From positions 1 through 32,112 of the IMG/VR virus record IMGVR_UViG_3300042197_001023: a DNA stretch of 32,112 bases; one strand, given 5' to 3'. This document shows, piece after piece, positions 9,436 through 29,525 of this stretch. Under the pieces are notes generated by a model that was not told the DNA's origin, ran no database searches, and worked only from the letters and a program-made list of their open reading frames with translations. The position numbers were made by a program, and so were the translations under genes. The stretch is from a virus. The number at the start of each line of letters is the position of its first letter. Positions within the stretch are counted from its first letter, which is position 1.

Positions 9436-9527
9436 TTAACTAACCGCATTAGTATTTATAATACAAAGGAGGAGATTTCTCTCCTCCCACCTTACAGATT
9501 GCGGTCAGTTAAGGCACTATTATTTAT
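9436..9527 (-). promoter_or_regulatory. Late-promoter/stem control module A of the GIY-YIG gene
   Basis: Arms TTAACTGACCGCA (9500-9512, minus sense first) and TGCGGTTAGTTAA (9436-9448) pair over 13 bp including one G-U. Inside are a GGAGGAGA/TCTCCTCC hairpin (about 9469-9488) and the late promoter TATAAATA (9453-9460). The downstream arm ends 8 nt before the start codon. A second late core (ATAAATA, 9521-9527) lies outside the stem. Read-through RNA should hide the start region; RNA from the inner promoter lacks the first arm. Confidence 0.75.
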
Positions 9528-9700
9528 CATTGAACACGCACACCAATGACTTCACAGGGTTGACTATCATCGAACCATTCATAAAACTCATTCATAATGG
9601 CATCTGCTGTATCATAATCACCAGATTTTAGATGATACTCTACCATACTGTCAACCTGATCTTTGATACTCAGAATGAGATTGTGTCGTGCTTTGTTCAT
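9527..9700 (-). CDS. Small hypothetical protein (57 aa)
   Basis: MNKARHNLILSIKDQVDSMV, EYHLKSGDYDTADAIMNEFY, EWFDDSQPCEVIGVRVQ. Helical start, strand end. Its 3' end overlaps the outer late promoter of module A, so the endonuclease was inserted directly behind this gene. Confidence 0.65.
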   Translation of the reverse strand: MNKARHNLILSIKDQVDSMVEYHLKSGDYDTADAIMNEFYEWFDDSQPCEVIGVRVQ

Positions 9701-9703
9701 CGT

Positions 9704-9865
9704 TCAGACAGAGAGAGTAACGTCGATTTCTTTAATGTTTAGACCACAGAGTTGTTCATAAACTCGGTTGAGAATAATTTTAGCAGCAGACTTTGCTTTG
9801 GATTTCTCATACCAGATGGTACAAAGTCCATCAAAAGTTTCAACGTAAATGCGATAGTTTTTCAT
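9704..9865 (-). CDS. Small hypothetical protein (53 aa)
   Basis: MKNYRIYVETFDGLCTIWYE, KSKAKSAAKIILNRVYEQLC, GLNIKEIDVTLSV: strand-strand-helix-strand. This pattern of RIYVET followed by a KAKSAAK helix is common among small phage proteins with a double-psi or ferredoxin-like shape; the function is unknown. TAATG overlap with the upstream stop. Confidence 0.65.
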   Translation of the reverse strand: MKNYRIYVETFDGLCTIWYEKSKAKSAAKIILNRVYEQLCGLNIKEIDVTLSV

Positions 9866-10014
9866 TAGTCAAGACACACAAAGTTGTAATCAATAATGTC
9901 TTCACCTTCATCAAGATTGAGACATTCAGCAATAGCATCAGGGATAAACTTGCGAGGATGACTATTCTCATCAATCACAATCTCAAGTTTAACAACCCAA
10001 GTTTTGGTAGTCAT
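9865..10014 (-). CDS. Conserved small protein (49 aa)
   Basis: I chose the start MTTKTWVVKLEIVIDENSHP, followed by RKFIPDAIAECLNLDEGEDI and YNFVCLD. The element VTIDExSHPRKFxPDAIxECL recurs in cyanophages; the function is unknown. Longer starts would run into the previous gene. It begins one base before the upstream stop. Confidence 0.7.
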   Translation of the reverse strand: MTTKTWVVKLEIVIDENSHPRKFIPDAIAECLNLDEGEDIIDYNFVCLD

Positions 10015-10015
10015 T

Positions 10016-10189
10016 TCAGTTCTGGTGTTGTTTGAGGTGAAGTTTGATACAATCCATAACCTCATCAAGTGTTGGAGCATTACCATCATAGTAGTAATCC
10101 ATATTCATTACATCTGTGACTTTGAGAGTGTAATAAACATCTCCATTAGGAAAATACTGTTTGATTTCGATGTAAGTTTCGTAATCCAT
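10016..10189 (-). CDS. Small hypothetical protein (57 aa)
   Basis: MDYETYIEIKQYFPNGDVYY, TLKVTDVMNMDYYYDGNAPT, then a helix LDEVMDCIKLHLKQHQN. Beta hairpin then helix. The start follows the upstream stop by 2 bp. Confidence 0.65.
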   Translation of the reverse strand: MDYETYIEIKQYFPNGDVYYTLKVTDVMNMDYYYDGNAPTLDEVMDCIKLHLKQHQN

Positions 10190-10191
10190 AA

Positions 10192-10431
10192 TCAGTAGAG
10201 GAGAGAAAATGAACCACAGAAGCGACGAACCCATTGCAAAGTATCATAATGGGAACGCGGTTTGCTCATCACCATACTCGTATTCTTTTCAGGATTGAGA
10301 GCAATCGCAACATACTGATGACCACATTCTTGCCATTCAGGTGTCACTTGCTGAATGAACATTTGGCAGACTTTGCCTTCTTTCCAGTTGGTCGTGTAGT
10401 GAAAGATTTCAGTCATTTGATCAGTGCTCAT
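10192..10431 (-). CDS. Hypothetical protein (79 aa)
   Basis: MSTDQMTEIFHYTTNWKEGK, VCQMFIQQVTPEWQECGHQY, VAIALN. The family-like part begins at MTEIFHYTTNWKEG, so the second ATG (10416) may be the true start and the first five residues may be CR-encoded. Aromatic and strand-rich. First gene of a five-gene unit. Confidence 0.65.
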   Translation of the reverse strand: MSTDQMTEIFHYTTNWKEGKVCQMFIQQVTPEWQECGHQYVAIALNPEKNTSMVMSKPRSHYDTLQWVRRFCGSFSLLY

Positions 10432-10460
10432 ACTATAGAGACACTTTGAAGGCCCCAGGT
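10429..10460 (-). repeat. CR element 7, heads the 10431-9527 unit
   Basis: Core with CCTTCAAAGTGTCTC, TATAGT, ATG AGC AC. Five closely spaced genes follow. Confidence 0.9.
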
Positions 10461-10469
10461 TACTAACTG

Positions 10470-10724
10470 TTACCAAGTTCCGCGTTGGATGTGGATTTTA
10501 CGGATCTCCTGATAAAGAAACTGACGAAGTTTAGGGTCGGTAGTGTTATCAAAAGCATAATGTAGACGATTTAGGTATTCTTGTTGTGTGATACCAATGT
10601 TACCATTCCCACCCAAGTCATTGAGTGAAGAACCTGCCTTTCTTCGTGGTTGAGAAACTGTACCAGAAGTTCTCAACTTCGGTTTTATTTTAGATAGATT
10701 AGATGTTGCAAAATCAGTAGTCAT
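10470..10724 (-). CDS. Small basic hypothetical protein (84 aa)
   Basis: A polar basic N-terminal half (LSKIKPKLRTSGTVSQPRRK) is followed by a helical half (QQEYLNRLHYAFDNTTDPKL, RQFLYQEIRKIHIQRG). No known domain. It diverges from the plus-strand HNH gene across a 34-bp gap. Confidence 0.6.
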   Translation of the reverse strand: MTTDFATSNLSKIKPKLRTSGTVSQPRRKAGSSLNDLGGNGNIGITQQEYLNRLHYAFDNTTDPKLRQFLYQEIRKIHIQRGTW

Positions 10725-10728
10725 TATG

Positions 10729-10735
10729 CTAAATA
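10729..10735 (+). promoter_or_regulatory. Late promoter CTAAATA for the HNH gene at 10759
   Basis: CTAAATA followed by ATACAGGTAA, 23 bp before the ATG. The AATACAGGTAA leader also precedes the HNH gene at 5440, where the late-like core is ATAAAATA. Confidence 0.6.
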
Positions 10736-10758
10736 ATACAGGTAACTTTGGTTAAACA

Positions 10759-11412
10759 ATGAGGCACAAGCATCACATCATTCCCAAGCATAGAGGTGGA
10801 ACAAATGACCCATCAAATCTGGTTGAGATTAGTTTGACGCAACACGCAATGTTTCATTATTGTGAATGGAAATTGTATGGAAAGAGAGCAGATTATGTTG
10901 CTTGGAAAAGATTAGTTGGTAACTTAAATGATGAAGAACTTGTGCATCAAAAACTCATTATGGGAGGAGAAAATGGAGGAAGAAAAGTCAAAGAACTTGG
11001 TTTAGGTATCTTTGCGATGAGTAAAGAAAGGAGGAGTGAAGTTAGCAAAAGAGGAGGAAAGATTGGCGGAAAGATTGGTGGATTGAGTAAAAGTGAAAAG
11101 AAACTAAATGCCGCCAGAAAAAATATGTTAAAGGCAGTTGAAAAAGCAAGAGAAGCAGGAGTATTTGATTATGAAATGTCTAAAGAAAGAGGAATAAAAG
11201 GTAATAAATCTCAAAGAGAAAAGTTTGAGAATGAAGGTAGAACAATCGCAGAACAAAAGTGGATTGTAACTACACCAGAGGGAGAAACATTAGAAGTATC
11301 AAATCTCAAAAAGTTTTGTAGAGAGAATAACTTACTACCAAACAAAATGTGTGAAGTTGGTAAAGGAAAGTGGAAACAACATAGAGGTTATGCTTGTAAG
11401 AGATTAGAGTAA
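10759..11412 (+). CDS. HNH homing endonuclease (217 aa)
   Basis: The HNH motif is at the extreme N-terminus: KHHIIPKHRGGTNDPSNLVE followed by SLTQHAMFHYCEW (H, N and H positions all present). A Gly/Lys-rich linker with GGKIGGKIGG repeats leads to a C-terminal module (about 165-215: TPEGETLEVSNLKKFCRENN, GKWKQHRGYACK). That module is shared with the GIY-YIG enzyme at 8830. The gene is on the opposite strand to all neighbours and abuts a gene stop at 11414. Confidence 0.85.
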   Translation: MRHKHHIIPKHRGGTNDPSNLVEISLTQHAMFHYCEWKLYGKRADYVAWKRLVGNLNDEELVHQKLIMGGENGGRKVKELGLGIFAMSKERRSEVSKRGGKIGGKIGGLSKSEKKLNAARKNMLKAVEKAREAGVFDYEMSKERGIKGNKSQREKFENEGRTIAEQKWIVTTPEGETLEVSNLKKFCRENNLLPNKMCEVGKGKWKQHRGYACKRLE

Positions 11413-11413
11413 G

Positions 11414-11650
11414 TCATCGTGCAATAATGTCCAGAGTTTCCATCAGCATCATAGAAAGGTCTACTTGATTGTCTTCATCAACCACAGGAATGTTAGCATC
11501 AACGAACTCAGATGCTAATTGTTGCAGAAGGACAGTCATTCTCTCATCAGCATAAGCAAAGGTGGCAAAATCACTCTTGAAACCATCACGCAGCAGACGC
11601 AGAGAACGTGTTACTGTTAGGTCTTTGATTTCTTGTTGGTAGTCAGTCAT
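11414..11650 (-). CDS. Small hypothetical protein (78 aa)
   Basis: I chose the start MTDYQQEIKDLTVTRSLRLL, which lies 1 bp after the upstream stop. It continues RDGFKSDFATFAYADERMTV and an acidic helical end (QVDLSMMLMETLDIIAR). No recognised family. Last gene behind CR 8. Confidence 0.65.
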   Translation of the reverse strand: MTDYQQEIKDLTVTRSLRLLRDGFKSDFATFAYADERMTVLLQQLASEFVDANIPVVDEDNQVDLSMMLMETLDIIAR

Positions 11651-11651
11651 T

Positions 11652-11852
11652 TCAGTTACCTTCAGAGATTTGGTTGAGAACATTGCGGGCAAATCGCATA
11701 AAATCGTATGCACTCACACCATCAACAGAATAAAAGTCAAGGACATCAGATCCGTTGTAAGTATTCACAATCAGCAGACAAGCATCATACAGGGCAGCAA
11801 GATGCTCCTCTTTTGAGTGAAACTGAATTGCATTGTAGGTGGGAAGTGTCAT
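11652..11852 (-). CDS. Small hypothetical protein (66 aa)
   Basis: MTLPTYNAIQFHSKEEHLAA, LYDACLLIVNTYNGSDVLDF, YSVDGVSAYDFMRFARNVLN. Helical. ATGA overlap with the upstream gene. Confidence 0.65.
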   Translation of the reverse strand: MTLPTYNAIQFHSKEEHLAALYDACLLIVNTYNGSDVLDFYSVDGVSAYDFMRFARNVLNQISEGN

Positions 11853-11968
11853 TTCAGTTTGAGTTTGAGTGATTGAAGTGCTTGTTTGCGGGACTTAATT
11901 TTGCCCTTACACATACCCTTGGTTCGTTTACACTTACCAGAATTGTGTTGCCAGTTGGGTGTCTTCAT
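11849..11968 (-). CDS. Very basic small peptide (39 aa)
   Basis: MKTPNWQHNSGKCKRTKGMC, KGKIKSRKQALQSLKLKLK. A Cys-x5-Cys pair (C13, C20) among Lys and Arg residues could form a mini zinc site or bind nucleic acid; this is inference. The start is fused to CR 8 and the stop overlaps the next gene as ATGA. Confidence 0.6.
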   Translation of the reverse strand: MKTPNWQHNSGKCKRTKGMCKGKIKSRKQALQSLKLKLK

Positions 11969-11997
11969 ACTATAGGAACACTTTCAAGGCCCCAGGT
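11966..11997 (-). repeat. CR element 8, heads the 11968-11414 unit
   Basis: Core with TTGAAAGTGTTCC, TATAGT, ATG. Its upstream edge overlaps the stop codon of the metallopeptidase gene. Confidence 0.9.
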
Positions 11998-12467
11998 TAC
12001 AGTCGATGACGTGAAATGGTGTGGCAGATAGTGTTACAAATGTTCACACCTGTGGTCTCGAAGATGTACTCTTCATACAGAGTTTCTTCTTGATCTCGTG
12101 CTTCAATCTCGTGTGGTTGATACCAATACTCATACTTTTCAACTGGTTCTTTACAATAACAAACTTTTCCGCGACGTAACTGCAGTGAACCTACAACCCA
12201 TTGGCGAAGATGCACCAACTCGTGTAAAAGAGTTTTTGTATACAACTCTTTGTCCATGTAGGTGTTTAATTCAATCAGAAAGTGCCGAGGACGGTAAGTT
12301 TCATCAGCAACATCACAATAACCATGAACACCTTCTCTTCGCAGTCCTCGATGTAAAATCTTCACATCAATCTTGTGACGTGGAAGAAACTTATTCAAAA
12401 ACCAGGAAGTAACACTTTCACAGAGGAGTTTGCTATAACCGTATCCAGAATGTGAAATGTCAGGCAT
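11997..12467 (-). CDS. SprT-like zinc metallopeptidase (156 aa)
   Basis: The zinc motif LHELVHLRQW (HExxH at residues 82-86) is followed by a third-ligand region QPHEIEARDQEE (about 118-129), as in SprT and related phage peptidases. The upstream domain (LPRHKIDVKILHRGLR) is typical of the fold. Longer starts up to 12611 would overlap the zinc-ribbon gene; MPDISHSG fits the family length. Phage versions may degrade DNA-bound or repair proteins, by analogy with Spartan. Confidence 0.7.
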   Translation of the reverse strand: MPDISHSGYGYSKLLCESVTSWFLNKFLPRHKIDVKILHRGLRREGVHGYCDVADETYRPRHFLIELNTYMDKELYTKTLLHELVHLRQWVVGSLQLRRGKVCYCKEPVEKYEYWYQPHEIEARDQEETLYEEYIFETTGVNICNTICHTISRHRL

Positions 12468-12525
12468 GATCCCCAATGTAGAAACCAAATGAATGAAAAA
12501 ACAAAGATAAGTTTGTATGTTGCTG

Positions 12526-12735
12526 TCATCCCATACCTCTTGGAAATTGGTGTTTACAATCAGGACACAACCAGTGATCAATTCTATCACCATTAAGCAA
12601 CTCAACGCCAATCACACGACTATAGAAATAGGGAGGAGAATAGTTTTCCCAGTATTCTTCTGGGATAGGCAAATCAAACCAATTTGTACCACATTTGGGG
12701 CAATTCTCAAGTTTTGTGATGTCAGTGTAGTTCAT
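12526..12735 (-). CDS. Small zinc-ribbon protein (69 aa)
   Basis: Two Cys knuckles (CPKCGTNWFD near residue 12 and CPDCKHQFPRG near 58) make a four-Cys zinc ribbon. The start MNYTDITKLE overlaps the upstream stop as ATGA. It probably binds nucleic acid or serves as a protein contact; the partner is unknown. Confidence 0.7.
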   Translation of the reverse strand: MNYTDITKLENCPKCGTNWFDLPIPEEYWENYSPPYFYSRVIGVELLNGDRIDHWLCPDCKHQFPRGMG

Positions 12736-13193
12736 TTTGCGTACAGATAACCACCAGACCAATCTGCATTTTCAAGCAACCATTCACGATCAGCAATCAA
12801 TCGCAGGTCATAACGAACACCTTTGGCAGGTGCTTTCCAGGATGCAGACTTATACACTTGTCCAGTCTTTTTATCAATGAAGCAATGCACACTGCGCGAT
12901 CCTGCTGCGTTCATAATCACTTTATGATACTTTCTACCAGTTTCAGGATAGAACTCATAATCACAAATACCATCTTTCAGTTTAGCAATTTGCTTCTGAT
13001 GATACTCAACTGCCTCACCATACTTGTCAATCGTCGTTTGATGAGAACGGATAGAATAGTCGATGTAGTTCTGACGCAGTGCTTCACACAGAGCATAAGT
13101 GTGCCCCAGAACAGCAAGTTCAATGTTCTTGCGTGCTTCTTGTTGTGCAGAATAGTCTGCAAAGGTTGTAGTAGTCATTTGTGCAGTGCTCAT
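12732..13193 (-). CDS. Conserved cyanophage hypothetical protein (153 aa)
   Basis: The C-terminal half carries a signature found in many cyanophage proteins: HKVIMNAAGSRSVHCFIDKK, TGQVYKSASWKAPAKGVRYD, and an end WSGGYLYAK. The N-terminal half is helical. The first five residues (MSTAQ) may be CR-encoded; the ATG at 13178 (MTTTTFADYS) is an alternative start. Function unknown. Confidence 0.75.
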   Translation of the reverse strand: MSTAQMTTTTFADYSAQQEARKNIELAVLGHTYALCEALRQNYIDYSIRSHQTTIDKYGEAVEYHQKQIAKLKDGICDYEFYPETGRKYHKVIMNAAGSRSVHCFIDKKTGQVYKSASWKAPAKGVRYDLRLIADREWLLENADWSGGYLYAK

Positions 13194-13222
13194 ACTATAG
13201 GGGCACTTTGAAGGCCCCAGGT
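13191..13222 (-). repeat. CR element 9, heads the 13193-11997 unit
   Basis: Core with CCTTCAAAGTGCCCC, TATAGT, ATG AGC AC. The downstream flank is nearly the same as at CR 7 (ATGAGCACTG, then CAAATGACT). Confidence 0.9.
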
Positions 13223-13223
13223 T

Positions 13224-13781
13224 TCAGAAGTCCAGATGCTTGTTAATTGCTGCTTGGATTTCTTCAGAAAGTGAAGTCGGAGGAAGAATGGGATTGACTT
13301 CACCAATGTCACACTTATAGTAATCTCCGAGACCAAACTTTGCAAAGACACCATCACCATCTGCAAAATAACGGTCTCGTGCAACTTCATCCTCAACAAC
13401 AATCACTTGGAATGTAGTCAGACAGAGAACGATTGCAACATCAAAAGTTTGGTCATTCTTGAAATCTTCCAGAGTTTTCTTGTTACCCTGAAAGTTTTTC
13501 ATCTTGATAACTTGCGTCTGATGTGGAGTGCGTTTGTAGAACAGATTTTGACGCATTTTCAGTTCTACTTTGAGACCCCCAAAGAGAAAATCGTGTCCAA
13601 TTTGATCTACTCGAACAAGATTAGAAAACTTCTCAAGTGCTTTCTCAATCGTTGTAGATTTGGTAAAATTATCTGCACGGGATGTGAACCCTTTGTCACC
13701 GTAAGTGGAACAAACTACACCAAAAACTTTGTCCCAATTCACCTCACTTTCGAGGTGGTCAATAAGATTTGCGATTGTCAT
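13224..13781 (-). CDS. Possible PD-(D/E)xK nuclease (185 aa)
   Basis: The stretch IGHDFLFGGLKVELKMRQ (about 61-78) gives D64 and E73-x-K75 on adjacent strands, the pattern of the restriction-like nuclease core. A later strand FDVAIVLCL (113-121) fits the third core strand. This is motif reading only; a non-nuclease relative is possible. It has its own sigma70 promoter and a CR upstream, after a strong terminator, so it is a single-gene unit. Confidence 0.5.
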   Translation of the reverse strand: MTIANLIDHLESEVNWDKVFGVVCSTYGDKGFTSRADNFTKSTTIEKALEKFSNLVRVDQIGHDFLFGGLKVELKMRQNLFYKRTPHQTQVIKMKNFQGNKKTLEDFKNDQTFDVAIVLCLTTFQVIVVEDEVARDRYFADGDGVFAKFGLGDYYKCDIGEVNPILPPTSLSEEIQAAINKHLDF

Positions 13782-13818
13782 TGTTGAACTAACTCCGTTA
13801 GTGTCTTGTACGTTTTAG

Positions 13819-13847
13819 AGTATAACAAATCCGTTTTGGATTGTCAA
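13819..13847 (-). promoter_or_regulatory. Sigma70 early promoter for the nuclease-like gene
   Basis: Minus strand: TTGACA (13842-13847), 17 bp, TATACT (13819-13824). It lies between CR 10 and the gene. GGAG lies 13 nt before the ATG. Confidence 0.82.
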
Positions 13848-13850
13848 CTC

Positions 13851-13881
13851 CTTTAGTAGGGACAATTTGAAGGCCCCAGGT
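13851..13881 (-). repeat. CR element 10, between a terminator and a sigma70 promoter
   Basis: Core CTGGGGCCTTCAAATTGTCC kept, but followed by CTACTAAAGGAG instead of the TATAGT-ATG end. Lying just after a terminator, it can only act on the nuclease-like gene. Confidence 0.85.
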
Positions 13882-13895
13882 TAAAACTATTTTCT

Positions 13896-13970
13896 AAAAA
13901 ACCTGCAATTCTGCTGCACTGAATGACCTATGACACCCTGACAGTAGAATTGCAGAAAAATCAGGTTTTT
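13896..13970 (-). terminator. Large terminator after the helicase
   Basis: Minus sense: CTGCAATTCT pairs with AGAATTGCAG (arms 13946-13955 and 13903-13912) with a loop of about 33 nt that has further pairing (ACTG/CAGT), then GGTTTTTT. A second symmetric pair (AAAAACCTG / CAGGTTTTT, 13896-13905 and 13962-13970) allows an alternative fold and possible two-way action. Confidence 0.75.
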
Positions 13971-14002
13971 GCTGTAGTGGTGGACAGGGTTCTCAATGGG
14001 TC

Positions 14003-15250
14003 TCATTTGCGAACCACCGACACAGCAGGTTGACCCTGATTAAAGGTAGTATCAACAACCGACTGAACTGCGCGGGCAGTAGTGATACCAACCTTGTTGT
14101 AGACAGGAATACAAACCAGACCGAACGATTTGCTATACTGACCGAGGTTGCCAGGTTCAATAGCACCAGAACGCAGATTAGCAGCATCATCGTGATGCAA
14201 ACGGATCACACGACCGATAGTTTGAGAGATACCAATGTAGTCCATGTTCCGCATAAACAACACTGCTTCCAATCCAGATACATTGATGCCCTCAGATAGG
14301 ATGCTATGATGTAGCACAACGAACTTCTTAGAGTTGTCTTTGCCCCATGCAGATAGAGTGTCGAAGAATACTTCCCGATTGACTTTGCGACCGTCAATAA
14401 CAGCACCAGTCTTGGCAGTAATGTACATCCAAGAGTAACCGCGTTGATTGAGTTCGTAGCAGAAATCAGTTTCTGACACCAGAGCAACAATTTGTTTGGT
14501 TGCTTTAGCACAAATCAAAATCTTACCGACTTTGTTGTCATCAATCGTTTCCAGCAGGTTCTCAGCATCTCGGTCAAAGTTAGTCTGCTTTCCAGTCACC
14601 ATTGGAAGTTGCTTGACAATCACTTTGGGGGGCACAATAAACCCACCTTCAACCAACTCAGGAGCAGGAACTTGGCAGATAACCTGACCATAAACCTGAG
14701 GAATGTTCATTCCAGGTTTGAACGGAGTGAGAGAATGTTTAGGAGTAGCAGTGAAGAAATAGCAACGATTTGCAGATGCAGAAAAGTGCTCAGTTGCAGG
14801 GAAAAAGTGTCTCTGAACAGAATTATGTGCCTCATCGAAGTAGATTGTGTCCACATCAATCTCTGCCTCTTGCAGACGATTTAGAGAGTGATAGGTAGTG
14901 AAAATCAGTTGGTGACGATTTGTGACCTTGCAACCAACATCGTGTGCTTGAATGTCAGACACTTTGGTGCTGCTATAATGATGAGTTTCACCAGAGTGAA
15001 CGTGCATCACTTCAGCATCAGTGATAAACTCCAGAAACTCAGAAGAAAGTTGCTCAGCAAGCAAAATACGCGGAGCAACTATAACAATCGTCTGAGGAGT
15101 TTGTGATTGCAACTGACGCAAAGCATCATAGATCATCTTCAGAGTTTTTCCACCACCAGTAGGAACAATAATCTGTCCCTTTGTGTGATTTTGCATTGCA
15201 GCAACAGCACGTTCTTGATGTGGTCGAAGTTGGATTTGCATTTGCGTCAT
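14003..15250 (-). CDS. SF2 DNA/RNA helicase, DEAH type (415 aa)
   Basis: Two RecA domains are visible. Motif Q/I: LRPHQERAVAAM and PTGGGKT (residues about 31-37). Motif Ia: IVIVAPRILLAEQL. Motif II: YFDEAHN. Motif III: FFTATP. C-terminal motifs: HSILSEGINV (V) and QTIGRVIRL (VI). This is a cyanophage helicase of the UvsW/type III restriction-like group, probably acting on replication or recombination intermediates. The start follows CR 11 and a large terminator ends the unit. Confidence 0.9.
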   Translation of the reverse strand: MTQMQIQLRPHQERAVAAMQNHTKGQIIVPTGGGKTLKMIYDALRQLQSQTPQTIVIVAPRILLAEQLSSEFLEFITDAEVMHVHSGETHHYSSTKVSDIQAHDVGCKVTNRHQLIFTTYHSLNRLQEAEIDVDTIYFDEAHNSVQRHFFPATEHFSASANRCYFFTATPKHSLTPFKPGMNIPQVYGQVICQVPAPELVEGGFIVPPKVIVKQLPMVTGKQTNFDRDAENLLETIDDNKVGKILICAKATKQIVALVSETDFCYELNQRGYSWMYITAKTGAVIDGRKVNREVFFDTLSAWGKDNSKKFVVLHHSILSEGINVSGLEAVLFMRNMDYIGISQTIGRVIRLHHDDAANLRSGAIEPGNLGQYSKSFGLVCIPVYNKVGITTARAVQSVVDTTFNQGQPAVSVVRK

Positions 15251-15254
15251 TATC

Positions 15255-15285
15255 TAATAGTGGGACACTTTAAAGGCCCCAAATT
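15255..15285 (-). repeat. CR element 11, upstream of the helicase
   Basis: Variant with GGGGCCTTTAAAGTGTCCC, then ACTATTAGATAATG leading into the helicase start. The final CTGG flank is changed to TTTGG. Confidence 0.82.
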
Positions 15286-15289
15286 GTTA

Positions 15290-16344: not shown

Positions 16345-16354
16345 GCCCTGGTCT

Positions 16355-22911: not shown

Positions 22912-22934
22912 TTGTTTTTGTAAGTTACTCCTTA

Positions 22935-23107: not shown

Positions 23108-23116
23108 TGAAGTCTC

Positions 23117-23149: not shown

Positions 23150-23167
23150 AATTTTTTTGGAGTCTTT

Positions 23168-23356: not shown

Positions 23357-23388
23357 ACATTGAAGATATTTGTTTAATATCTATGTTT

Positions 23389-23601: not shown

Positions 23602-23603
23602 TT

Positions 23604-23634
23604 CATTAAAAGAACAATTTAAAGGCCCCAGATT
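23604..23634 (-). repeat. CR element 18, the last copy
   Basis: Variant: CTGGGGCCTTTAAATTGTTC, TTTTAATGAAATG. The used ATG (23601) is the second one, 5 nt beyond the vestigial ATG. No further copy is seen to the right end of the window. Confidence 0.82.
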
Positions 23635-23797
23635 AACCACCCTTTTCTCTTAAACTTCTTACAAGATACTCAGTAAATGCTTCCATCTTTTGTGGCGCAA
23701 CTTGTGAAATGTCGTGATTGATTGCATCTTTAAGTGCCTCCATTTCGTTCCACTCAAAATCAGTAAGTTTGTCTTTATTTCTTGATGAAAGTGTCAT
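23633..23797 (-). CDS. Small helical hypothetical protein (54 aa)
   Basis: MTLSSRNKDKLTDFEWNEME, ALKDAINHDISQVAPQKMEA, FTEYLVRSLREKGG. Its stop overlaps the edge of CR 18. No known domain. Confidence 0.62.
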   Translation of the reverse strand: MTLSSRNKDKLTDFEWNEMEALKDAINHDISQVAPQKMEAFTEYLVRSLREKGG

Positions 23798-23890
23798 AGT
23801 TTTGTTCCCGAATACCCCAATATGTTAGCATATCAATATAAATTATCTATAAATTTAATAATCTCTTCGGGATTGCTTTACAATTCTTAA

Positions 23891-24115
23891 TTACCCATTA
23901 AAGAATGGTCCAAAAGAACCACTACCGCCAGATTTTCGACTTTCAAGCATATCCATCAGTTCTTCAATCTTCTTGCACTGCTCCATATCAAGAAGAAGTT
24001 GAGAAAGTTGTTTTACAACTAAAGGATTTTCGTTGGTTGCAGCACTTTTGATTGCGGCACGAAGATGCGACTCTGCTTCTAAAAGATGGTCCAGTGTTTG
24101 TTTTGATAACGCCAT
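23891..24115 (-). CDS. Conserved cyanophage hypothetical protein (74 aa)
   Basis: MALSKQTLDHLLEAESHLRA, AIKSAATNE, LLDMEQCKKIEELMDMLESR, then SGSFGPFFNG. The LLxAESxxRxAxKxAAxNE opening and Gly/Phe end are typical of a short helical cyanophage family. Last gene of the long coupled train starting far to the right. It begins one base from the upstream stop. Confidence 0.72.
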   Translation of the reverse strand: MALSKQTLDHLLEAESHLRAAIKSAATNENPLVVKQLSQLLLDMEQCKKIEELMDMLESRKSGGSGSFGPFFNG

Positions 24116-24609
24116 TAAACTTTCCTCAAAAGATAAGAACCATCCCCTCTATCAACCCACTCAACTTTATCCCCTTCTTTGAGATTTGCTGCTTCAAGTA
24201 AATCATCGGGGAAAGATACAAAATATTCACCACTTGGACCATCCATTTCAACAGGAAGTTGCCATCTTACTACTTTGTCTTCTTTTTTATTTGCAACTTG
24301 ATACTCTAAGTCACTGTGTCCCCAAGGACGCATACCATCATCTTTTCCTTCATAATACTCTCTTTCACTCAAAACTTCTTTTACATAATCATCATATGCC
24401 TCAATATGTCCCTTACCATTACCATTCAGCAATGCAAGAAGTTCATAACAACGACCAGTATGATGCTTGAAGTAATAATACTCTTCATTCACAACACCTT
24501 TGATAGTATCATAGATTTCTTGTGGTGATACTTCCGCAGAAATCAAAGCATCCCTAACCCAAGTGTTTAGTTGTTGAAGAGAATGTTTTTTGTAATCAAA
24601 GTCAGTCAT
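24115..24609 (-). CDS. Conserved protein with AbrB-like C-terminus (164 aa)
   Basis: The N-terminal 60 residues (MTDFDYKKHSLQQLNTWVRD, SAEVSPQEIYDTIKGVV, CYELLALLNG) follow a cyanophage family. The C-terminal part (FVSFPDDLLEAANLKEGDKV, EWVDRGDGSYLLRKV) looks like a SpoVT/AbrB strand-loop unit. Such a fusion could be a DNA-binding regulator; this is inference. The start is the Met that follows the upstream stop. Confidence 0.68.
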   Translation of the reverse strand: MTDFDYKKHSLQQLNTWVRDALISAEVSPQEIYDTIKGVVNEEYYYFKHHTGRCYELLALLNGNGKGHIEAYDDYVKEVLSEREYYEGKDDGMRPWGHSDLEYQVANKKEDKVVRWQLPVEMDGPSGEYFVSFPDDLLEAANLKEGDKVEWVDRGDGSYLLRKV

Positions 24610-24611
24610 AA

Positions 24612-24860
24612 TTAAAACCAAGAACCTTTGAGTGATTTGTGAGATTGCTTCATTGCCTTATAGAGTTTTTTAATTTCTTGATAGGCATTTTCTGCTGTCA
24701 TCTTACCACCGATTGCCATATTCGTCAAGTAAGAGACGTGATGTGAAAAGTTGTTTAAGTTGTTAATTGTAGCAATATCTAGAAAACTCATATCAGCATC
24801 TGGGTTCATTGGAGGAGTTGGATACAAGAACTCCTCTTTCACTTGTTTTGATGTAGTCAT
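24612..24860 (-). CDS. Conserved small protein (82 aa)
   Basis: MTTSKQVKEEFLYPTPPMNP, SFLDIATINNLNNFSHHVSY, LTNMAIGGKMTAENAYQEIK, KLYKAMKQSHKSL. Helical after residue 25. A cyanophage pattern of unknown function. ATG near the TAA of the gene before. Confidence 0.65.
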   Translation of the reverse strand: MTTSKQVKEEFLYPTPPMNPDADMSFLDIATINNLNNFSHHVSYLTNMAIGGKMTAENAYQEIKKLYKAMKQSHKSLKGSWF

Positions 24861-25120
24861 TTATTACCAAGATTAAATTGATTTATAGTATAAGGTTCTA
24901 CTGCTAAAATGTCAATACGAGCATCAACTGCATCAATTTGATTTGAGAGTTCATATAAGCAATTGCTTGTTTCTATATTTTCTTCTTCTAGATTTTTAAT
25001 ATCTAAAAGTAATGACTGATACTTTTCTTCCAGTTCAACAATTTTTGCGTACAGGTCAGTATTTTCAATTATTGGCTTTTTAGACGGTGCGATAATCCAT
25101 TTTACAAATTTAATAATCAT
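24857..25120 (-). CDS. Coiled-coil hypothetical protein (87 aa)
   Basis: A short hydrophobic/basic N-terminus (MIIKFVKWIIAPSKK) may bind membrane. It is followed by a long heptad helix (LYAKIVELEEKYQSLLLDIK, NLEEENIETSNCLYELSNQI). ATGA-type overlaps on both sides. Confidence 0.65.
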   Translation of the reverse strand: MIIKFVKWIIAPSKKPIIENTDLYAKIVELEEKYQSLLLDIKNLEEENIETSNCLYELSNQIDAVDARIDILAVEPYTINQFNLGNK

Positions 25121-25347
25121 TTTTTTAAGTTTCTTAATTCACTTTGAACATAAAGCATCTCATCTTGCAATCTAATAATTCTTTCGTCAAAAGATTTAAT
25201 CCATTCAATAATCATATAATTTTCTCCAGTGTCATCATTCTTAACTGTGTAATAATAATCGTTTCTATCTTCTTTTTCATATGGATATAGTCTTGCTTCC
25301 CAATCGGAAACTATTTGCCACAACACTATTCTGATTTTTCTCCACAT
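25117..25347 (-). CDS. Small hypothetical protein with coiled-coil end (76 aa)
   Basis: MWRKIRIVLWQIVSDWEARL, YPYEKEDRNDYYYTVKNDDT, a strand, then a helix DERIIRLQDEMLYVQSELRN. With the gene after it (24857), it forms a coupled pair of heptad-rich proteins that may associate. Confidence 0.65.
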   Translation of the reverse strand: MWRKIRIVLWQIVSDWEARLYPYEKEDRNDYYYTVKNDDTGENYMIIEWIKSFDERIIRLQDEMLYVQSELRNLKK

Positions 25348-25496
25348 TAGAGTATCCCAATAGATTTAAGATAACGACGATATGCCATGTAACGTCCCAG
25401 AGATGGTTGTCCTGGAACATCTAATTGGTGGCAGATTTCACAATACATTAGAAACTCATACCACGGAGTTGTTTCATCCAGAACGTGATAATTCAT
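25347..25496 (-). CDS. Conserved small protein (49 aa)
   Basis: MNYHVLDETTPWYEFLMYCE, ICHQLDVPGQPSLGRYMAYR, RYLKSIGIL. The STPWYEFLMxCExxHQxDxPGxPSLGRY pattern is shared by cyanophage proteins. Starts and stops overlap neighbours (ATGA, TAATG). Confidence 0.7.
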   Translation of the reverse strand: MNYHVLDETTPWYEFLMYCEICHQLDVPGQPSLGRYMAYRRYLKSIGIL

Positions 25497-25666
25497 AGGA
25501 GTTCTTTCCAAAATCCATCACCTTTTTGCAGTGCTAATGATACTGTTGTATGCTCTCTTGCGTGTCTGTCAAGGTCATTTTCTTTAAAGTAAATGTTAGA
25601 CCTTTCAACAGCACATTTAAAGATATTAGCCCACATCTGTTGATGTGGTGTCAGTCTGAGTTTCAT
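25493..25666 (-). CDS. Small basic hypothetical protein (57 aa)
   Basis: MKLRLTPHQQMWANIFKCAV, ERSNIYFKENDLDRHAREHT, TVSLALQKGDGFWKELL. Helical. It overlaps the 3' end of the gene before it by 41 bp in another frame. Confidence 0.6.
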   Translation of the reverse strand: MKLRLTPHQQMWANIFKCAVERSNIYFKENDLDRHAREHTTVSLALQKGDGFWKELL

Positions 25667-25754
25667 AGAGTTGTTTAAGTGCTTCTATAACTTCTTGAGT
25701 TTCTTCCCACTCCCAAGTATTACCATTTTTGTCAACGAAAATACGTGTTGTCAT
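25626..25754 (-). CDS. Conserved small protein (42 aa)
   Basis: MTTRIFVDKNGNTWEWEETQ, EVIEALKQLYETQTDTTSTD. The TRIFVDKNGxTWEWEETxEV start is a known small cyanophage pattern: beta hairpin plus helix. The last 13 codons overlap the next gene. Confidence 0.68.
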   Translation of the reverse strand: MTTRIFVDKNGNTWEWEETQEVIEALKQLYETQTDTTSTDVG

Positions 25755-25966
25755 AATTTTCCTTCAATAACTGAACTATAAGTCACTTCATTAGATTTGT
25801 CAAACGCACTCTCTTGGTTTTGTTTCAAATACCAACGAGTTGCAGTAACACATTGTTCTTCACTAAGAGATGTAACCAACCCCTTACCTTCTTTATCATA
25901 ACTATCCCACGTTCCCCACTTCTTTTGCTCCACATAGAAAGCATCATCATACAGTTGTTTTTCCAT
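25751..25966 (-). CDS. Conserved small protein (71 aa)
   Basis: MEKQLYDDAFYVEQKKWGTW, DSYDKEGKGLVTSLSEEQCV, TATRWYLKQNQE, ending VIEGKL. The WDSYDKEGKGLxTSLxEEQC element is conserved in cyanophages; the function is unknown. ATGA overlap downstream. Confidence 0.72.
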   Translation of the reverse strand: MEKQLYDDAFYVEQKKWGTWDSYDKEGKGLVTSLSEEQCVTATRWYLKQNQESAFDKSNEVTYSSVIEGKL

Positions 25967-26108
25967 AATGATTTAATTGTCGTTTGAGTTCTACTTGAAT
26001 TGAAATGAGATGACTATACATAAACTTTTCATATTCATTATCTTTGAGCAAATTGACAAGATTATCAATCTGCATCAGTCCCAGAATAAGTTTTGTTTGT
26101 TCAGTCAT
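25947..26108 (-). CDS. Conserved small helical protein (53 aa)
   Basis: MTEQTKLILGLMQIDNLVNL, LKDNEYEKFMYSHLISIQVE, LKRQLNHYGKTTV. The LLxDNEYExFMYSHLIxxQVELxRQL part is a cyanophage family. It overlaps the start of the next gene by 20 bp. Confidence 0.7.
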   Translation of the reverse strand: MTEQTKLILGLMQIDNLVNLLKDNEYEKFMYSHLISIQVELKRQLNHYGKTTV

Positions 26109-26259
26109 TTCTTACGCTTTGTAGTGCAAGCAAAGTTTCAATTGGTATCCACGCTGGATTTTCTTTTGCGAACTGAACCTGAACCTCTGTTACTTTTTGG
26201 TTTAGGTGTTTGCTCCACACTTCTCTTGTTCCCTTTACTGGGTGAAACGGGTTCTCCAT
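26101..26259 (-). CDS. Small hypothetical protein in overlap (52 aa)
   Basis: MENPFHPVKGTREVWSKHLN, QKVTEVQVQFAKENPAWIPI, ETLLALQSVRND. It overlaps the previous gene by 122 bp in another frame. Its composition is protein-like and its end overlaps the start of the next gene, which argues that it is real, but the long overlap lowers certainty. Confidence 0.5.
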   Translation of the reverse strand: MENPFHPVKGTREVWSKHLNQKVTEVQVQFAKENPAWIPIETLLALQSVRND

Positions 26260-26422
26260 CACGATAATCAATTTTAATAGTTCTCTCATCCAGTTTATAC
26301 CTTTCTAAGTATTTTTGCAAGTGTTCTTCACATTCAAACCAACAGATTGTCGTGTTCTTCTTTTCACCAAATTCAAGACGAATGGAAAATGTATTATACG
26401 GAAATAGAAAATTTTCAATCAT
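26138..26422 (-). CDS. Conserved hypothetical protein (94 aa)
   Basis: MIENFLFPYNTFSIRLEFGE, KKNTTICWFECEEHLQKYLE, RYKLDE follow a cyanophage pattern. A basic, disordered tail (SKGNKRSVEQTPKPKSNRGS, GSVRKRKSS) follows. Function unknown. It is the first gene after the AT-rich glycosyltransferase. Confidence 0.7.
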   Translation of the reverse strand: MIENFLFPYNTFSIRLEFGEKKNTTICWFECEEHLQKYLERYKLDERTIKIDYRDGEPVSPSKGNKRSVEQTPKPKSNRGSGSVRKRKSSVDTN

Positions 26423-26438
26423 GTTAATAATATTATAC

Positions 26439-27260
26439 TCAACAATAAAATATTTTATTGTTTTTTAAAGAATTTGACAAACAGATAGATGTGTCATATA
26501 CATCAAAATTTCTCCACATTTGATCATAATTATTAGTTTTTTCAAATCCCAAAGAACTTATATCACCTGCCTTCGAGGATTTTTTTATTGCTACTATCTC
26601 TTCACTAGAATCCAAAAAAAATCCTAAAAATTTTTTTTTGTCGTATCCAAAAATTTCAAATTTATCAATGAATTCTTTATCAAAATATTTTTGAGGATGA
26701 AAATGACACAATTGACCGGTTGTAGCAATATTTAAATTTGGTTTAGATAAACATATTGATCTGCCCAAAACAGTTGTAGCTGTTACATCTATACTACATA
26801 CCCCATAATATTCTTCCCTACAATGCAACTTAATTAAATTAATAGCATTCTCCAATGGTTTTGATTTTGGTTGAGAATATATAATTCCATTGTGAACAGC
26901 CCATGATTGCATTGACGCTCTGGGATTGTCACGAAAAGCAAAAAATTCTAATGAATCATGAGGTGTAATTTTGTTTACAAAATAAGTATTCAAGTCCGCA
27001 TAAATTCCACCATAAAGGTACAAGAGGCAATATCTTGCTAAATCTGCCTTACACGCGAAAGGTTTTAGTTTTTTATAACAAAGAAAAACTTCTTCATCAA
27101 AATATTTTTTAATTATCTCTTCTATTTCTTCTCCAGAATAAAGATGATATTTTTCATTTGGATATAACTTTTTTATTTGCTCATAACAAAAAATGTGAAA
27201 ATCGGGGAAAGTGCTTGGGAGTTTTTTTGTTTCATTAATTAATATTTGATGTATTATCAT
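26439..27260 (-). CDS. GT32-like glycosyltransferase (273 aa)
   Basis: The core LKPFACKADLARYCLLYLYG followed by GIYADLN (about 65-92) is the OCH1/capsular-sugar type motif. The second Asp of the DxD pair is replaced by Asn (D-L-N), as in few relatives, so activity is uncertain. The N-terminus MIIHQILINETKKLP fits IPxIIHQIW-type starts. Strongly AT-rich beside its neighbours, so probably acquired. It may modify phage or host glycans together with the carbamoyltransferase. Confidence 0.75.
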   Translation of the reverse strand: MIIHQILINETKKLPSTFPDFHIFCYEQIKKLYPNEKYHLYSGEEIEEIIKKYFDEEVFLCYKKLKPFACKADLARYCLLYLYGGIYADLNTYFVNKITPHDSLEFFAFRDNPRASMQSWAVHNGIIYSQPKSKPLENAINLIKLHCREEYYGVCSIDVTATTVLGRSICLSKPNLNIATTGQLCHFHPQKYFDKEFIDKFEIFGYDKKKFLGFFLDSSEEIVAIKKSSKAGDISSLGFEKTNNYDQMWRNFDVYDTSICLSNSLKNNKIFYC

Positions 27261-27262
27261 AT

Positions 27263-27316
27263 TCAATAATCATCCTGATACTCAATATCAGAGTTTGCGT
27301 TCATTAGTTCTACCAT
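27263..27316 (-). CDS. Possible micropeptide (17 aa)
   Basis: MVELMNANSDIEYQDDY. It lies in an otherwise tightly packed gene train and follows a short frame ending DTVTQGY by 3 bp. There is no independent support, so it could be a non-coding gap. Confidence 0.25.
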   Translation of the reverse strand: MVELMNANSDIEYQDDY

Positions 27317-27375
27317 AGTTTAATAACCTTGTGTCACTGTGTCTTCATGTTGAATACCAATGTCCCGCAGTGCTC

Positions 27376-27474
27376 TCACATCATATTCTGATGCAGCAAT
27401 ACTCCACTAATGATACACAAGTAAAGTGCTACCAGAACACTTAACATAATGACTACTTTTGTTTTATCACTCAT
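27376..27474 (-). CDS. Tiny membrane peptide (32 aa)
   Basis: MSDKTKVVIMLSVLVALYLC, IISGVLLHQNMM: a short charged start and one membrane span. ATGA overlap with the upstream gene supports translation. A frame with GTGA overlap follows (RALRDIGIQHEDTVTQGY, to 27319) and may be a coupled 19-residue peptide. Confidence 0.55.
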   Translation of the reverse strand: MSDKTKVVIMLSVLVALYLCIISGVLLHQNMM

Positions 27475-27869
27475 TGTCCTGTGATGTCTTCATACCCCAT
27501 CAGTTTACCACCAGAAAAGTGAAGACGCAAGGTGGGCCAGGCAATCCATTCACCACCCCAAGTTGCTGGATAAACCCGAATGTATTTTGTCAGATACCAA
27601 GGACGAATTTTGCCGTGATTGCCGTTAGGTATCCACTGAAAGTTAAAGAGTTTTTGTCTATCATCATAACCCTCATCACCTTCTTTAAGTTCTACAAAAT
27701 CAGCAGTATGTGAGTAATCAATGTAATACAACTGTCCCCCAGGAGACAACCAATAATGACTCATTGTTCCACCGATACCATACTCTTCAATATCTTTTGT
27801 TTGAAGTTCAGTGTCAGTAAATTGTTCTCCAAGATCATATGAAGAACGTAAAAAATCCATCATTCCCAT
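27471..27869 (-). CDS. Conserved cyanophage hypothetical protein (132 aa)
   Basis: FLRSSYDLGEQFTDTELQTK, DIEEYGIGGTMSHYWLSPGG, then WIPNGNHGK and GEWIAWPTLRLHFSGGKL make a strong match to a cyanophage family of unknown function, rich in Trp and strands. The ATG of MGMMDFLRSS overlaps the upstream stop as TAATG. Confidence 0.78.
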   Translation of the reverse strand: MGMMDFLRSSYDLGEQFTDTELQTKDIEEYGIGGTMSHYWLSPGGQLYYIDYSHTADFVELKEGDEGYDDRQKLFNFQWIPNGNHGKIRPWYLTKYIRVYPATWGGEWIAWPTLRLHFSGGKLMGYEDITGQ

Positions 27870-28462
27870 TAGTCCCACCACCAGCAGAGATTTGTAAGTG
27901 TATTTAAAAATTGTTCGTGATAAACAGTGCGACTTGGGTTAGGTTTCCTGTCTTTCATATCTTGAAGATATTGTATGATACCACGAACCACAGGAGTGTC
28001 TTGAAAGTATTCGTGCATTCTGTAACAATCAAACTTCTCATTGTATTCAATGAAGTCGTGTAATGGGTTCATATTACGACGGTATCCCCAGATGAATACA
28101 TCTTCATCTTTGATGCCTTCTTTGTTGATGATTTCTAATGGATAAAACTTTTGTCCCTCTTCGTCTTCAACTGCATCTTCTTCCCTTTCTTCTTTTGTAT
28201 CAAACTTAAAGTGAAGTCCATCATAATACTTATCGTGCAACTCTTCATTCGGAGCCACACGAACTTTCTCATTTTCTGCCAGAATATATTCCATACGACC
28301 TTTCGCATCCTCATCAGTCAAACGAAACACGATGTTGCCGATGTAGTAATCCACAGGGCCACCATACATATTCTCTGACCTTTTTTTACGAAATGAGAGA
28401 TGTAGTATCTCAAATCCAGGGTCTTCATTTTCAGTTTCTACCAATCCTTGTGTGATACTCAT
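27869..28462 (-). CDS. Acidic hypothetical protein (197 aa)
   Basis: Mixed sequence with an acidic middle (FDTKEEREEDAVEDEEGQKF) and an aromatic end (FLNTLTNLCWWWD). The part PGFEILHLSFRKKRSENMYG, PVDYYIGNIVFRL suggests a beta domain. I do not recognise a family. Coupled at both ends (ATGA upstream, TAATG downstream). Confidence 0.68.
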   Translation of the reverse strand: MSITQGLVETENEDPGFEILHLSFRKKRSENMYGGPVDYYIGNIVFRLTDEDAKGRMEYILAENEKVRVAPNEELHDKYYDGLHFKFDTKEEREEDAVEDEEGQKFYPLEIINKEGIKDEDVFIWGYRRNMNPLHDFIEYNEKFDCYRMHEYFQDTPVVRGIIQYLQDMKDRKPNPSRTVYHEQFLNTLTNLCWWWD

Positions 28463-28647
28463 CTAAATCCCTTTGCCTCTTTTCTATCTAGCACTTCAAT
28501 ATGACTTAGAAAGTTTCCATTACGGTTCCACCATAATAGTTGAACATCTTCATAGTTGTCAAATACTTGATAAGTGCCGTCATCATAAACAACTTTATAG
28601 TCGTGACGAAGATAAGGTTCATTTGATGTTTGTTGAAAGATTTTCAT
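28459..28647 (-). CDS. Conserved small protein (62 aa)
   Basis: MKIFQQTSNEPYLRHDYKVV, YDDGTYQVFDNYEDVQLLWW, NRNGNFLSHIEVLDRKEAKG. The DYKVVYxDGxxxxFDxYxDVQxLWWN pattern is a known cyanophage small-protein signature. The start is set by the ATGA overlap with the peptide upstream. Confidence 0.72.
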   Translation of the reverse strand: MKIFQQTSNEPYLRHDYKVVYDDGTYQVFDNYEDVQLLWWNRNGNFLSHIEVLDRKEAKGFR

Positions 28648-28733
28648 TTGTTGATTGTTGTGAGAAGAACCCATAACCAAACCTCTAATACGATAAGAAC
28701 AATGATTTCAACAAAAACTGGTGGAAGTGTCAT
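28644..28733 (-). CDS. Tiny membrane peptide (29 aa)
   Basis: MTLPPVFVEIIVLIVLEVWL, WVLLTTINK: one membrane span. It overlaps the stop of the GIY-YIG gene and the start of the next gene, both as ATGA. Confidence 0.5.
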   Translation of the reverse strand: MTLPPVFVEIIVLIVLEVWLWVLLTTINK

Positions 28734-29422
28734 TTTTTCATTCTACCTAAAATCCACCCATTACCAAGACATTCTATACTTCTTTTCGTCGTTTGTCCAT
28801 TATTCCACCATTTTGTTCCTCTTACTCTTTCAGACAATATTTTTATTGTCTCTTTTTGACTTTCATTTTGAAGTTTTCCTTTTTTTGCTTCACTTATTTT
28901 TCTTTTTATTTCATCACTAATAACTTTATTCAAATTACCCTGTTTTATTTTTTCTTTATGTTCTTCTGAAAGTTTTCTTCCAACATTCCATTTATTTCCT
29001 ATTTTTGATTTCCTCATTTTTTCTATACTTTCGTCAGAATGTTTTTTAACTCTACATTTTTCAAGTATTTGTTTTTGTTCTTTGGAAAGTGTTTTTCCTT
29101 TATGAACTTTACTTATTTTTTGTTTTGCTTCATCACTCATTCTCATTCCAACAGAACCCTCACCACCATTAGTTTTGTTTCTCAAAATACCAGTTCCCAA
29201 ATCTTTTCTACCAAAAACAGCAATCATATACTTTTCGTGCTTAAATGCTTCTTCTTCGGTTAGATTTTGTTTAAGAAATATTATTCTTGATTTATCTTTA
29301 GGTAGTTTTATTTCATTTTTACTTTTTTTATATGCCCTATTTCCCCAACCTTTACCAATGTAATAAGGTGTTCTGTTCTCACGCAAATAAGCATAGGTAT
29401 AAAATCTATATGGATTTACCAT
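28730..29422 (-). CDS. GIY-YIG homing endonuclease with NUMOD3-type repeats (230 aa)
   Basis: The nuclease domain (FYTYAYLRENRTPYYIGKGW; KYMIAVFGRKDLGTGILRNK; NGGEG) is close to that at 8830. It is followed by three or four NUMOD3-like helix repeats (MSDEAKQKISKVHKGKTLSK, RKLSEEHKEKIKQGN, SDEIKRKISEAKKGK) and a C-terminal end TKWWNNGQTTKRS with GWILGR. The repeats bind DNA along the groove. Controlled by stem module B. Confidence 0.9.
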   Translation of the reverse strand: MVNPYRFYTYAYLRENRTPYYIGKGWGNRAYKKSKNEIKLPKDKSRIIFLKQNLTEEEAFKHEKYMIAVFGRKDLGTGILRNKTNGGEGSVGMRMSDEAKQKISKVHKGKTLSKEQKQILEKCRVKKHSDESIEKMRKSKIGNKWNVGRKLSEEHKEKIKQGNLNKVISDEIKRKISEAKKGKLQNESQKETIKILSERVRGTKWWNNGQTTKRSIECLGNGWILGRMKK

Positions 29423-29435
29423 AATTCTACTCTTA

Positions 29436-29525
29436 AACTGACTGCATTAGTATTTATATTACAAAGGAGAGGAAAAATCCTCTCCTACCTTAAAGATTGC
29501 AGTCAGTTAAGGCACTATTATTTAG
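29436..29525 (-). promoter_or_regulatory. Late-promoter/stem control module B of the GIY-YIG gene
   Basis: Arms AACTGACTGCA (29498-29508 in minus sense) and TGCAGTCAGTT (29436-29446) pair perfectly. Inside are GGAGAGGA/TCCTCTCC (about 29466-29485) and TATAAATA (29451-29458). CTAAATA (29519-29525) lies outside. Compared with module A, both stems differ in sequence but keep pairing. Confidence 0.75.

Follow-up and report, generated by a model that had tools for sequence, protein, structure and literature searches.

Two leader modules in a cyanophage contig

The stretch of DNA analysed here, referred to as the window, is a 32-kb virus record from IMG/VR (IMGVR_UViG_3300042197_001023, 32,112 nucleotides (nt)) of T4-like cyanophage character, whose genes lie mainly on the minus strand. 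Two of these genes are of the GIY-YIG homing endonuclease type, and each is preceded by a leader module of ∼100 nt (Table 1). An earlier first-pass annotation, made from the sequence alone, had described two modules of identical order at these positions. Both are present on the minus strand, where they form a 92-nt direct repeat with 84% identity: copy 1 spans 9427–9526, copy 2 spans 29420–29524, and a GIY-YIG start codon lies at each 3' end. AlphaFold2 returned a weak model for one of the endonucleases (predicted local distance difference test score, pLDDT, 66) with no usable PDB match, and the GIY-YIG assignment therefore rests on motif and profile matches.

Read along the minus strand, the 5' half of the module consists of TAAATA, a short spacer and a hairpin, P1 (TGCCTTA...TAAGGT), which carries arm 1 in its loop (CTGACCGCA or CTGACTGCA in the window copies). 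The 3' half continues with a GC-rich hairpin, a short U tract, TATAAATA, a 4-nt spacer, arm 2 and the start codon. Arm 1 pairs with arm 2 to form an outer stem that reaches across the stretch immediately 5' of the start codon. The compensatory pairings quoted in the first-pass annotation are correct: CCGCA/TGCGG in one copy corresponds to CTGCA/TGCAG in the other, and GGAGGAGA/TCTCCTCC to GGAGAGGA/TCCTCTCC. That description had captured the outer stem, save for its extension towards the start codon, and every other part of the module except P1 and the terminator-like character of the inner hairpin. P1 constitutes a third helix, in which TGCCTTA pairs with TAAGGTG or TAAGGTA. The window copies have predicted folding energies of −37.1 kcal/mol (z −7.6) and −34.8 kcal/mol (z −5.3), and 0/200 shuffles fold as low.

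Table 1. Positions of the module parts and the endonuclease genes in the window, with the evidence for each
Feature	Position	Strand	Evidence
Copy 1 outer late-promoter core TAAATA	9521..9526	-	48/48 protein-found modules; same profile as inner core; missing at two empty sites
Copy 1 P1 hairpin, arm 1 in loop	9488..9516 (5' strand 9510-9516, 3' strand 9488-9494)	-	pairing 109/109; short-RNA fold 106/109
Copy 1 arm 1 (TTAACTGACCGCA)	9500..9512	-	pairs with arm 2; folding, covariation, swap test
Copy 1 terminator-like inner hairpin (GGGAGGAGA GAAA TCTCCTCCT)	9467..9488, U tract to ~9461	-	terminator scan
Copy 1 predicted short RNA, ~56 nt	9461..9516	-	outer core to terminator; two-hairpin fold
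Copy 1 putative inner late promoter TATAAATA	9453..9460	-	fits cyanophage late consensus NATAAATA (PMC2984593); A precedes in 109/109 copies
Copy 1 arm 2 (TGCGGTTAGTTAA)	9436..9448	-	approximate predicted 5' end of late mRNA; folding, covariation, swap test
GIY-YIG type homing endonuclease gene 1, 199 aa	8830..9429	-	motif YTYAYLR..YYIGKG; PHROG 314 homing endonuclease E 7e-10
Copy 2 outer late-promoter core TAAATA	29519..29524	-	repeat comparison; core profile
Copy 2 P1 hairpin, arm 1 in loop	29486..29514 (5' strand 29508-29514, 3' strand 29486-29492)	-	P1 pairing and short-RNA folds
Copy 2 arm 1 (TTAACTGACTGCA)	29498..29510	-	folding, covariation, swap test
Copy 2 terminator-like inner hairpin (AGGAGAGGA TTTT TCCTCTCCT)	29465..29486	-	folds; U tract too weak for terminator scan
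Copy 2 predicted short RNA, ~56 nt	29459..29514	-	predicted folds
Copy 2 putative inner late promoter TATAAATA	29451..29458	-	core profile
Copy 2 arm 2 (TGCAGTCAGTTTAA)	29433..29446	-	folding, swap test
GIY-YIG/NUMOD3 type homing endonuclease gene 2, 230 aa	28730..29422	-	Pfam NUMOD3 E 1.9e-15; PHROG 314 homing endonuclease E 1.8e-12

A family of covarying modules

Two copies alone are thin evidence, and the support comes from a wider family, which numbers at least 109 distinct members among T4-like cyanophages. Relatives of the two window proteins, together with L004, a NUMOD3-gene locus reached by a DNA pattern, supplied 51 non-redundant upstream regions with paired arms. The exact architecture recurs in 48 of them, and the outer TAAATA is found in 48/48, a comparatively unbiased figure as 47 came from protein searches or the window and L004 alone from a pattern containing TAAATA. 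The remaining three (L034, L057 and L059) represent a variant that lacks the outer TAAATA; here the terminator-like hairpin itself holds arm 1 in its loop, and arm 2 extends to the start codon. A covariance model, R1, built from 18 copies, yielded 83 matches in 100 loci and 55 in 20 whole records, a non-redundant total of 109; since the model begins at TAAATA, this set cannot itself prove the hexamer universal, and copies from related phages are not independent events. Among named isolates, S-SRM01 harbours six modules, B23 three, and S-B68 and S-N03 one each; under stricter filters none was detected in ACG-2014f, Sf-CH5, RN05-S, MC09, MA01, ME01, S-H34, S-SKS1 or P-SSM2. Rfam gave no family match to the module, either in the window at E values up to 1 or in 15 related loci, and no description of the module was found in the literature searched, which covered few subscription papers.

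The pairing is preserved throughout this family. In a model-fitted alignment of 80 distinct copies, 96.6% of the cells are paired and double-sided changes occur at all 21 pairs: 510 cells are changed on both sides, compared with 140 in shuffles, and the covariation score is 0.768, against 0.228 for shuffled and at most 0.137 for slid alignments. As a model-fitted alignment leans towards its own structure, two further checks were applied. A plain MAFFT alignment of 18 copies retains eight arm pairs intact in 18/18, with a score of 0.411 versus 0.204. An alignment-free swap of arms across 109 copies gave, for the duplex between arm 1 and the 5' end of the mRNA, −21.6 ± 2.2 kcal/mol for cognate and −10.0 ± 3.9 kcal/mol for swapped partners. 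The covariation search across cyanophages proposed in the first-pass annotation has therefore turned out strongly in favour of the stems, and swap test and covariation together rule out chance or a copied repeat. The helices and their covariation can be read directly from the sequences.

P1 pairs in 109/109 copies with varied sequence, as in TGCCTTA/TAAGGTA, TACCTGA/TCAGGTA, TGTCTGT/ACAGACA, TGCTTAA/TTAAGCA and TATCTGT/ACAGATA. RNAalifold applied to the 5' half missed this helix because MAFFT does not align P1 across sequence classes.

The module is not a general attribute of late genes. Among control late-promoter-like sites located before open reading frames (ORFs) of the same phages, 0/30 carry the arms or reach a duplex value of −17, as opposed to 35/35 modules. 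A terminator-like hairpin ahead of a late-promoter-like sequence was also observed at the glutaredoxin gene of S-SRM01.

Promoter-like cores and the inner hairpin

Both TAAATA hexamers resemble late promoters. The cyanophage late-promoter consensus is NATAAATA (PMC2984593), and outer and inner cores have a common extended profile, TAAATA-N-TAATG. The inner ATAAATA stands directly before arm 2 in 109/109 copies, always with A as the base preceding the core; the outer core is preceded by A (78 copies) or C (31), never by G or T. Outer core, P1 and terminator-like hairpin all lie on the strand of the gene. A U tract with at least five U in 8 nt follows the hairpin in 97/109 copies, and a terminator scan called the inner hairpin in copy 1 of the window, not in copy 2.

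A shared leader for unrelated endonucleases

In the 20 whole records, 54/55 modules directly precede a homing endonuclease gene (HEG) identified by family match or sequence motif. The 55 downstream genes comprise 30 of the YTYAYLR GIY-YIG type, seven YKITF, six YYSYE, three IYCxYC, five HNH of one type, three other HNH-like and one without a recognised domain; sequence motifs are the main basis of these classes, some of which are also backed by Pfam or PHROG. The link to free-standing GIY-YIG genes noted in the first-pass annotation holds for both window genes and is not special to them, as several GIY-YIG types, HNH and NUMOD genes follow the same module. A near-identical module stands ahead of an HNH gene (L155) and of GIY-YIG genes, and a close one ahead of the NUMOD3 gene of L004; the leader has therefore been exchanged between unrelated endonucleases.

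The module at L209 (29-136) is the sole full one in the genome-wide set with a domainless downstream protein, the N-terminus of which (LNEVFNVDGLDYI) resembles that of the L004 NUMOD3 protein (LNKFFNIDGPTYI). The GIY-YIG type genes of L191, L220 and L221 (S-SRM01, Sf-CH5, B23) bear the annotation 'translation initiation factor 2'. A different type of leader (L028, L031, L032, L036 and L038) precedes a further group of GIY-YIG genes; it consists of ATCGTCGGCGC..., a GGAGG/CCTCC hairpin and a late-promoter-like core and has no arms.

Comparisons with related genomes define the limits of the mobile unit. In S-N03 a module together with an HNH gene separates gp44 from gp62, and the TAAATA of the cassette provides the gp44 stop codon. 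The two genes abut in MA01 and are separated by a different small ORF in S-H34; neither phage has the cassette or its TAAATA. In S-SRM01, DUF1825 and gp32 flank an insert that begins with TAAATA, ends with the endonuclease stop codon and carries GCTTGA at either edge, and S-SKS1 and P-SSM2 exhibit the corresponding empty site. The outer late-promoter core is therefore part of the mobile cassette at both sites, and a host origin of this promoter is ruled out there. Linkage to HEGs, promoter-like cores and these two sets of boundaries are all matters of direct observation. An intron-encoded endonuclease was also rejected: no Rfam intron match was obtained in the window or in 15 related loci, and in the two comparisons the cassette sits between two genes rather than within one.

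The inverted arms might alternatively act as DNA, serving as a protein operator or as a recombination or homing site, with RNA pairing being incidental. I-TevI does bind an operator overlapping its own late promoter (PMC2988022), and the edge of the cassette coincides with the outer promoter. However, arms of unrelated sequence that are always complementary, lie 50–60 nt apart and are common to GIY-YIG and HNH proteins are unlike protein operators; moreover, they are situated within the cassette, not at its two ends. This explanation is regarded as extremely improbable.

Predicted RNA states and a model of control

Folding predictions separate three RNA species. For the full-length RNA, the minimum-energy fold includes the arm stem in 109/109 copies and P1 in 0/109. 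A short RNA extending from the outer start to the terminator is predicted to form P1 in 106/109 and two hairpins in 108/109. From 14 nt upstream through the AUG, the predicted unpaired fraction is 0.35 in long transcripts and 0.62 in those starting at the inner promoter, and the interval from Shine–Dalgarno (SD) sequence to AUG is more unpaired in the shorter transcript in 108/109 cases. Pairing of the late mRNA with its cognate short RNA brings the predicted value for the SD-AUG region back to 0.35, and net binding of short RNA to mRNA amounts to −13.7 kcal/mol for cognate and −3.2 kcal/mol for non-cognate partners. As P1 is missing from the full-length fold but predicted in the short RNA, the best account of its conservation is an RNA, or a stage, devoid of arm 2.

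These features are most likely accommodated by a three-layer control, the simplest reading that would use every conserved part. In cis, transcripts entering from upstream would encounter the terminator hairpin, and those reading through would pair arm 1 with arm 2, hiding the region 5' of the start codon. In a second layer, the inner late promoter would start an mRNA at approximately the first base of arm 2, so that arm 1 is missing, leaving the start region unmasked. The third layer would act in trans: from the outer late promoter, which forms the cassette's left edge, transcription would begin near the first base of P1 and stop at the terminator, and the resulting ∼55–56-nt RNA would display arm 1 in the loop of its 5' hairpin, pair with the 5' end of the late mRNA and limit output as gene copies rise. 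Promoter use, termination, repression and trans action are inferred from sequence, with different degrees of assurance. Arm 1 very probably represses translation, and escape through the inner promoter is credited almost as highly. The outer late promoter, the conserved P1 and the terminator together suggest a separate short RNA; the chances that such an RNA is made and acts in trans appear even. Taken as a whole, the module is, by a modest preference, viewed as the built-in expression control of a mobile HEG cassette: a double lock, in cis and in trans, that would keep the nuclease late and scarce.

The most serious competitor is a cis lock of the kind described for T4-like phages. Hairpins that sequester the ribosome-binding site are known for I-TevI, I-TevII, I-TevIII, T4 segB and Aeh1 mobE, with a late promoter within the stem in I-TevI and a predicted one at segB (PMC2988022, PMC3014915). 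The first-pass annotation had invoked the I-TevI logic, and the stem between start region and arm 1 and the inner late promoter do fit; the outer late promoter is left unexplained by it, because its transcripts would be repressed. In a pure cis lock the terminator would insulate, the inner promoter would allow escape, the outer TAAATA would act as a weak promoter or simply provide a stop codon, and P1 would be a transient intermediate of folding. The layout is that of the characterised T4-type cases (PMC2988022, PMC3014915), the predicted change in accessibility agrees, the outer TAAATA does supply the gp44 stop codon in S-N03, and variant modules dispense with it. Nevertheless, a pure cis lock accounts neither for the maintenance in every copy of a P1 that is incompatible with the predicted cis stem nor for the full late-promoter profile of the outer core, which is preceded exclusively by A or C. 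Such a lock would have no need of P1 or of the outer promoter, both of which would have a role in the three-layer control. The cis lock on its own is a possible, if rather doubtful, explanation.

A conformational switch, in which P1 and the arm stem are alternative states or form a pseudoknot and a ligand, a protein or transcription speed selects termination or translation in the manner of an attenuator or riboswitch, is held to be very unlikely. P1 and the start-proximal arm stem do share one 5' strand, but loop and arm sequences diverge freely, there is no conserved unpaired core beyond the promoter elements, Rfam gives no riboswitch match, and the terminator hairpin does not overlap the arms and is therefore compatible with both states.

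Several observations weigh against the three-layer control. The window copies have a modest U tract, and the scan overlooks the hairpin of copy 2; L034, L057 and L059 lack the outer TAAATA; and arms within a genome cross-pair no less than those of random modules, so that selection for orthogonality is not apparent. P1 might be a short-lived intermediate of folding or form a pseudoknot with the arm core, beyond the reach of nested folding programs. In addition, 5' halves devoid of an HEG are rare and look decaying (L003, L098, L235), which is evidence against the short RNA having a function of its own after loss of the endonuclease. Orphan short RNAs acting as an immunity system were rejected as well: only 3/60 matches to a 5'-half model lack a full module, and all are apparent cassette remnants. 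These module 5' halves without an endonuclease lie at L098 (2980-3084), L003 (1572-1671, minus strand) and L235, that of L098 being followed by the apparent last codons of an endonuclease gene.

Other features of the window and of related contigs

An 18-copy element (CCTGGGGCCTTGAAATTGTCCCTATAGTATGA and variants) occurs on the minus strand of the window at the starts of many small genes, at 4316, 4551, 6389, 7444, 7857, 8309, 10428, 11965, 13190, 13849, 15252, 17239, 18916, 19896, 20749, 22473, 23118 and 23601. Its ATG resembles a start codon in several copies and a short GGGGC/GTCCC hairpin could form; it is possibly an early or middle promoter or a leader. Two HNH-type genes on the plus strand (5440-5970 and 10759-11412) are antisense to their neighbours and lack the module, and a TAAATA lies ∼30 nt 5' of the second. 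Contigs of related phages contain a cyanobacterial-type transfer-messenger RNA, also scored as permuted (L024, 1186-1451), and a wcaG RNA (L037, 3066-3168).

Significance and comparison with known systems

If correct, this reading would add an RNA element that controls selfish endonuclease genes outside T4 and that is widely conserved, strongly supported by covariation and not represented in Rfam. The same leader precedes GIY-YIG, HNH and NUMOD genes, and hence expression unit and endonuclease domain behave as modules that recombine separately. The reason for which homing endonucleases are kept late and scarce becomes a directly testable question in isolates such as S-SRM01, with six copies, and B23, with three. 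The covariance model also locates such cassettes, among them several wrongly labelled 'translation initiation factor 2' or hypothetical. The broader proposal is that these cassettes share, across unrelated endonuclease families, a tandem two-promoter unit whose upstream promoter would make a same-strand, terminated hairpin RNA antisense to the 5' end of the endonuclease mRNA, resulting in copy-number-dependent self-limitation and possibly in silencing of related incoming cassettes; it seems as plausible as its negation.

In sequence and predicted folding, the putative short RNA recalls the RNA-OUT/RNA-IN pair of IS10, in which a 69-nt terminated RNA pairs with the start region of the enzyme mRNA, an effect that is stronger at higher copy number (PMC5006887). 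RNA-OUT is, however, transcribed from the opposite strand, whereas the module RNA would be a same-strand, upstream product acting in trans through a separately maintained complementary arm. The C4 antisense RNA of phages P1 and P7 is encoded on the same strand as its target and upstream of it. It is likewise a structured short phage RNA whose loops pair with the ribosome site of the target mRNA (PMC5320573). C4 differs in being ∼77 nt long, excised by RNase P and folded into three stems, and Rfam gave no C4 match in the window at E values up to 1. The predicted trans component is a member of neither class, because of its same-strand encoding with respect to RNA-OUT and the lack of an Rfam match. 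CfrI, the antisense RNA of cyanophage S-PM2, is also a cyanophage RNA tied to a homing endonuclease gene (PMC2984593); unlike the module RNA, it measures ∼225 nt and is antisense to psbA and the endonuclease gene.

Closer in layout is the leader of T4 gene e (lysozyme), where the ribosome site is masked in transcripts initiated upstream and is freed by late promoters located in the 5' strand (PMC3014915); gene e is not a mobile cassette, and no terminator, P1 or outer promoter is described there. The I-TevI type is nearest of all in its parts: a homing endonuclease gene, a start region that pairs with an upstream arm, and late transcripts without that arm, for the module as judged by promoter placement in the sequence. 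The module departs from it in three additional parts, namely P1 enclosing arm 1, a terminator-like hairpin within the stem and, at the edge of the cassette, an outer late promoter, and in being a single type of leader common to many unrelated endonuclease families.

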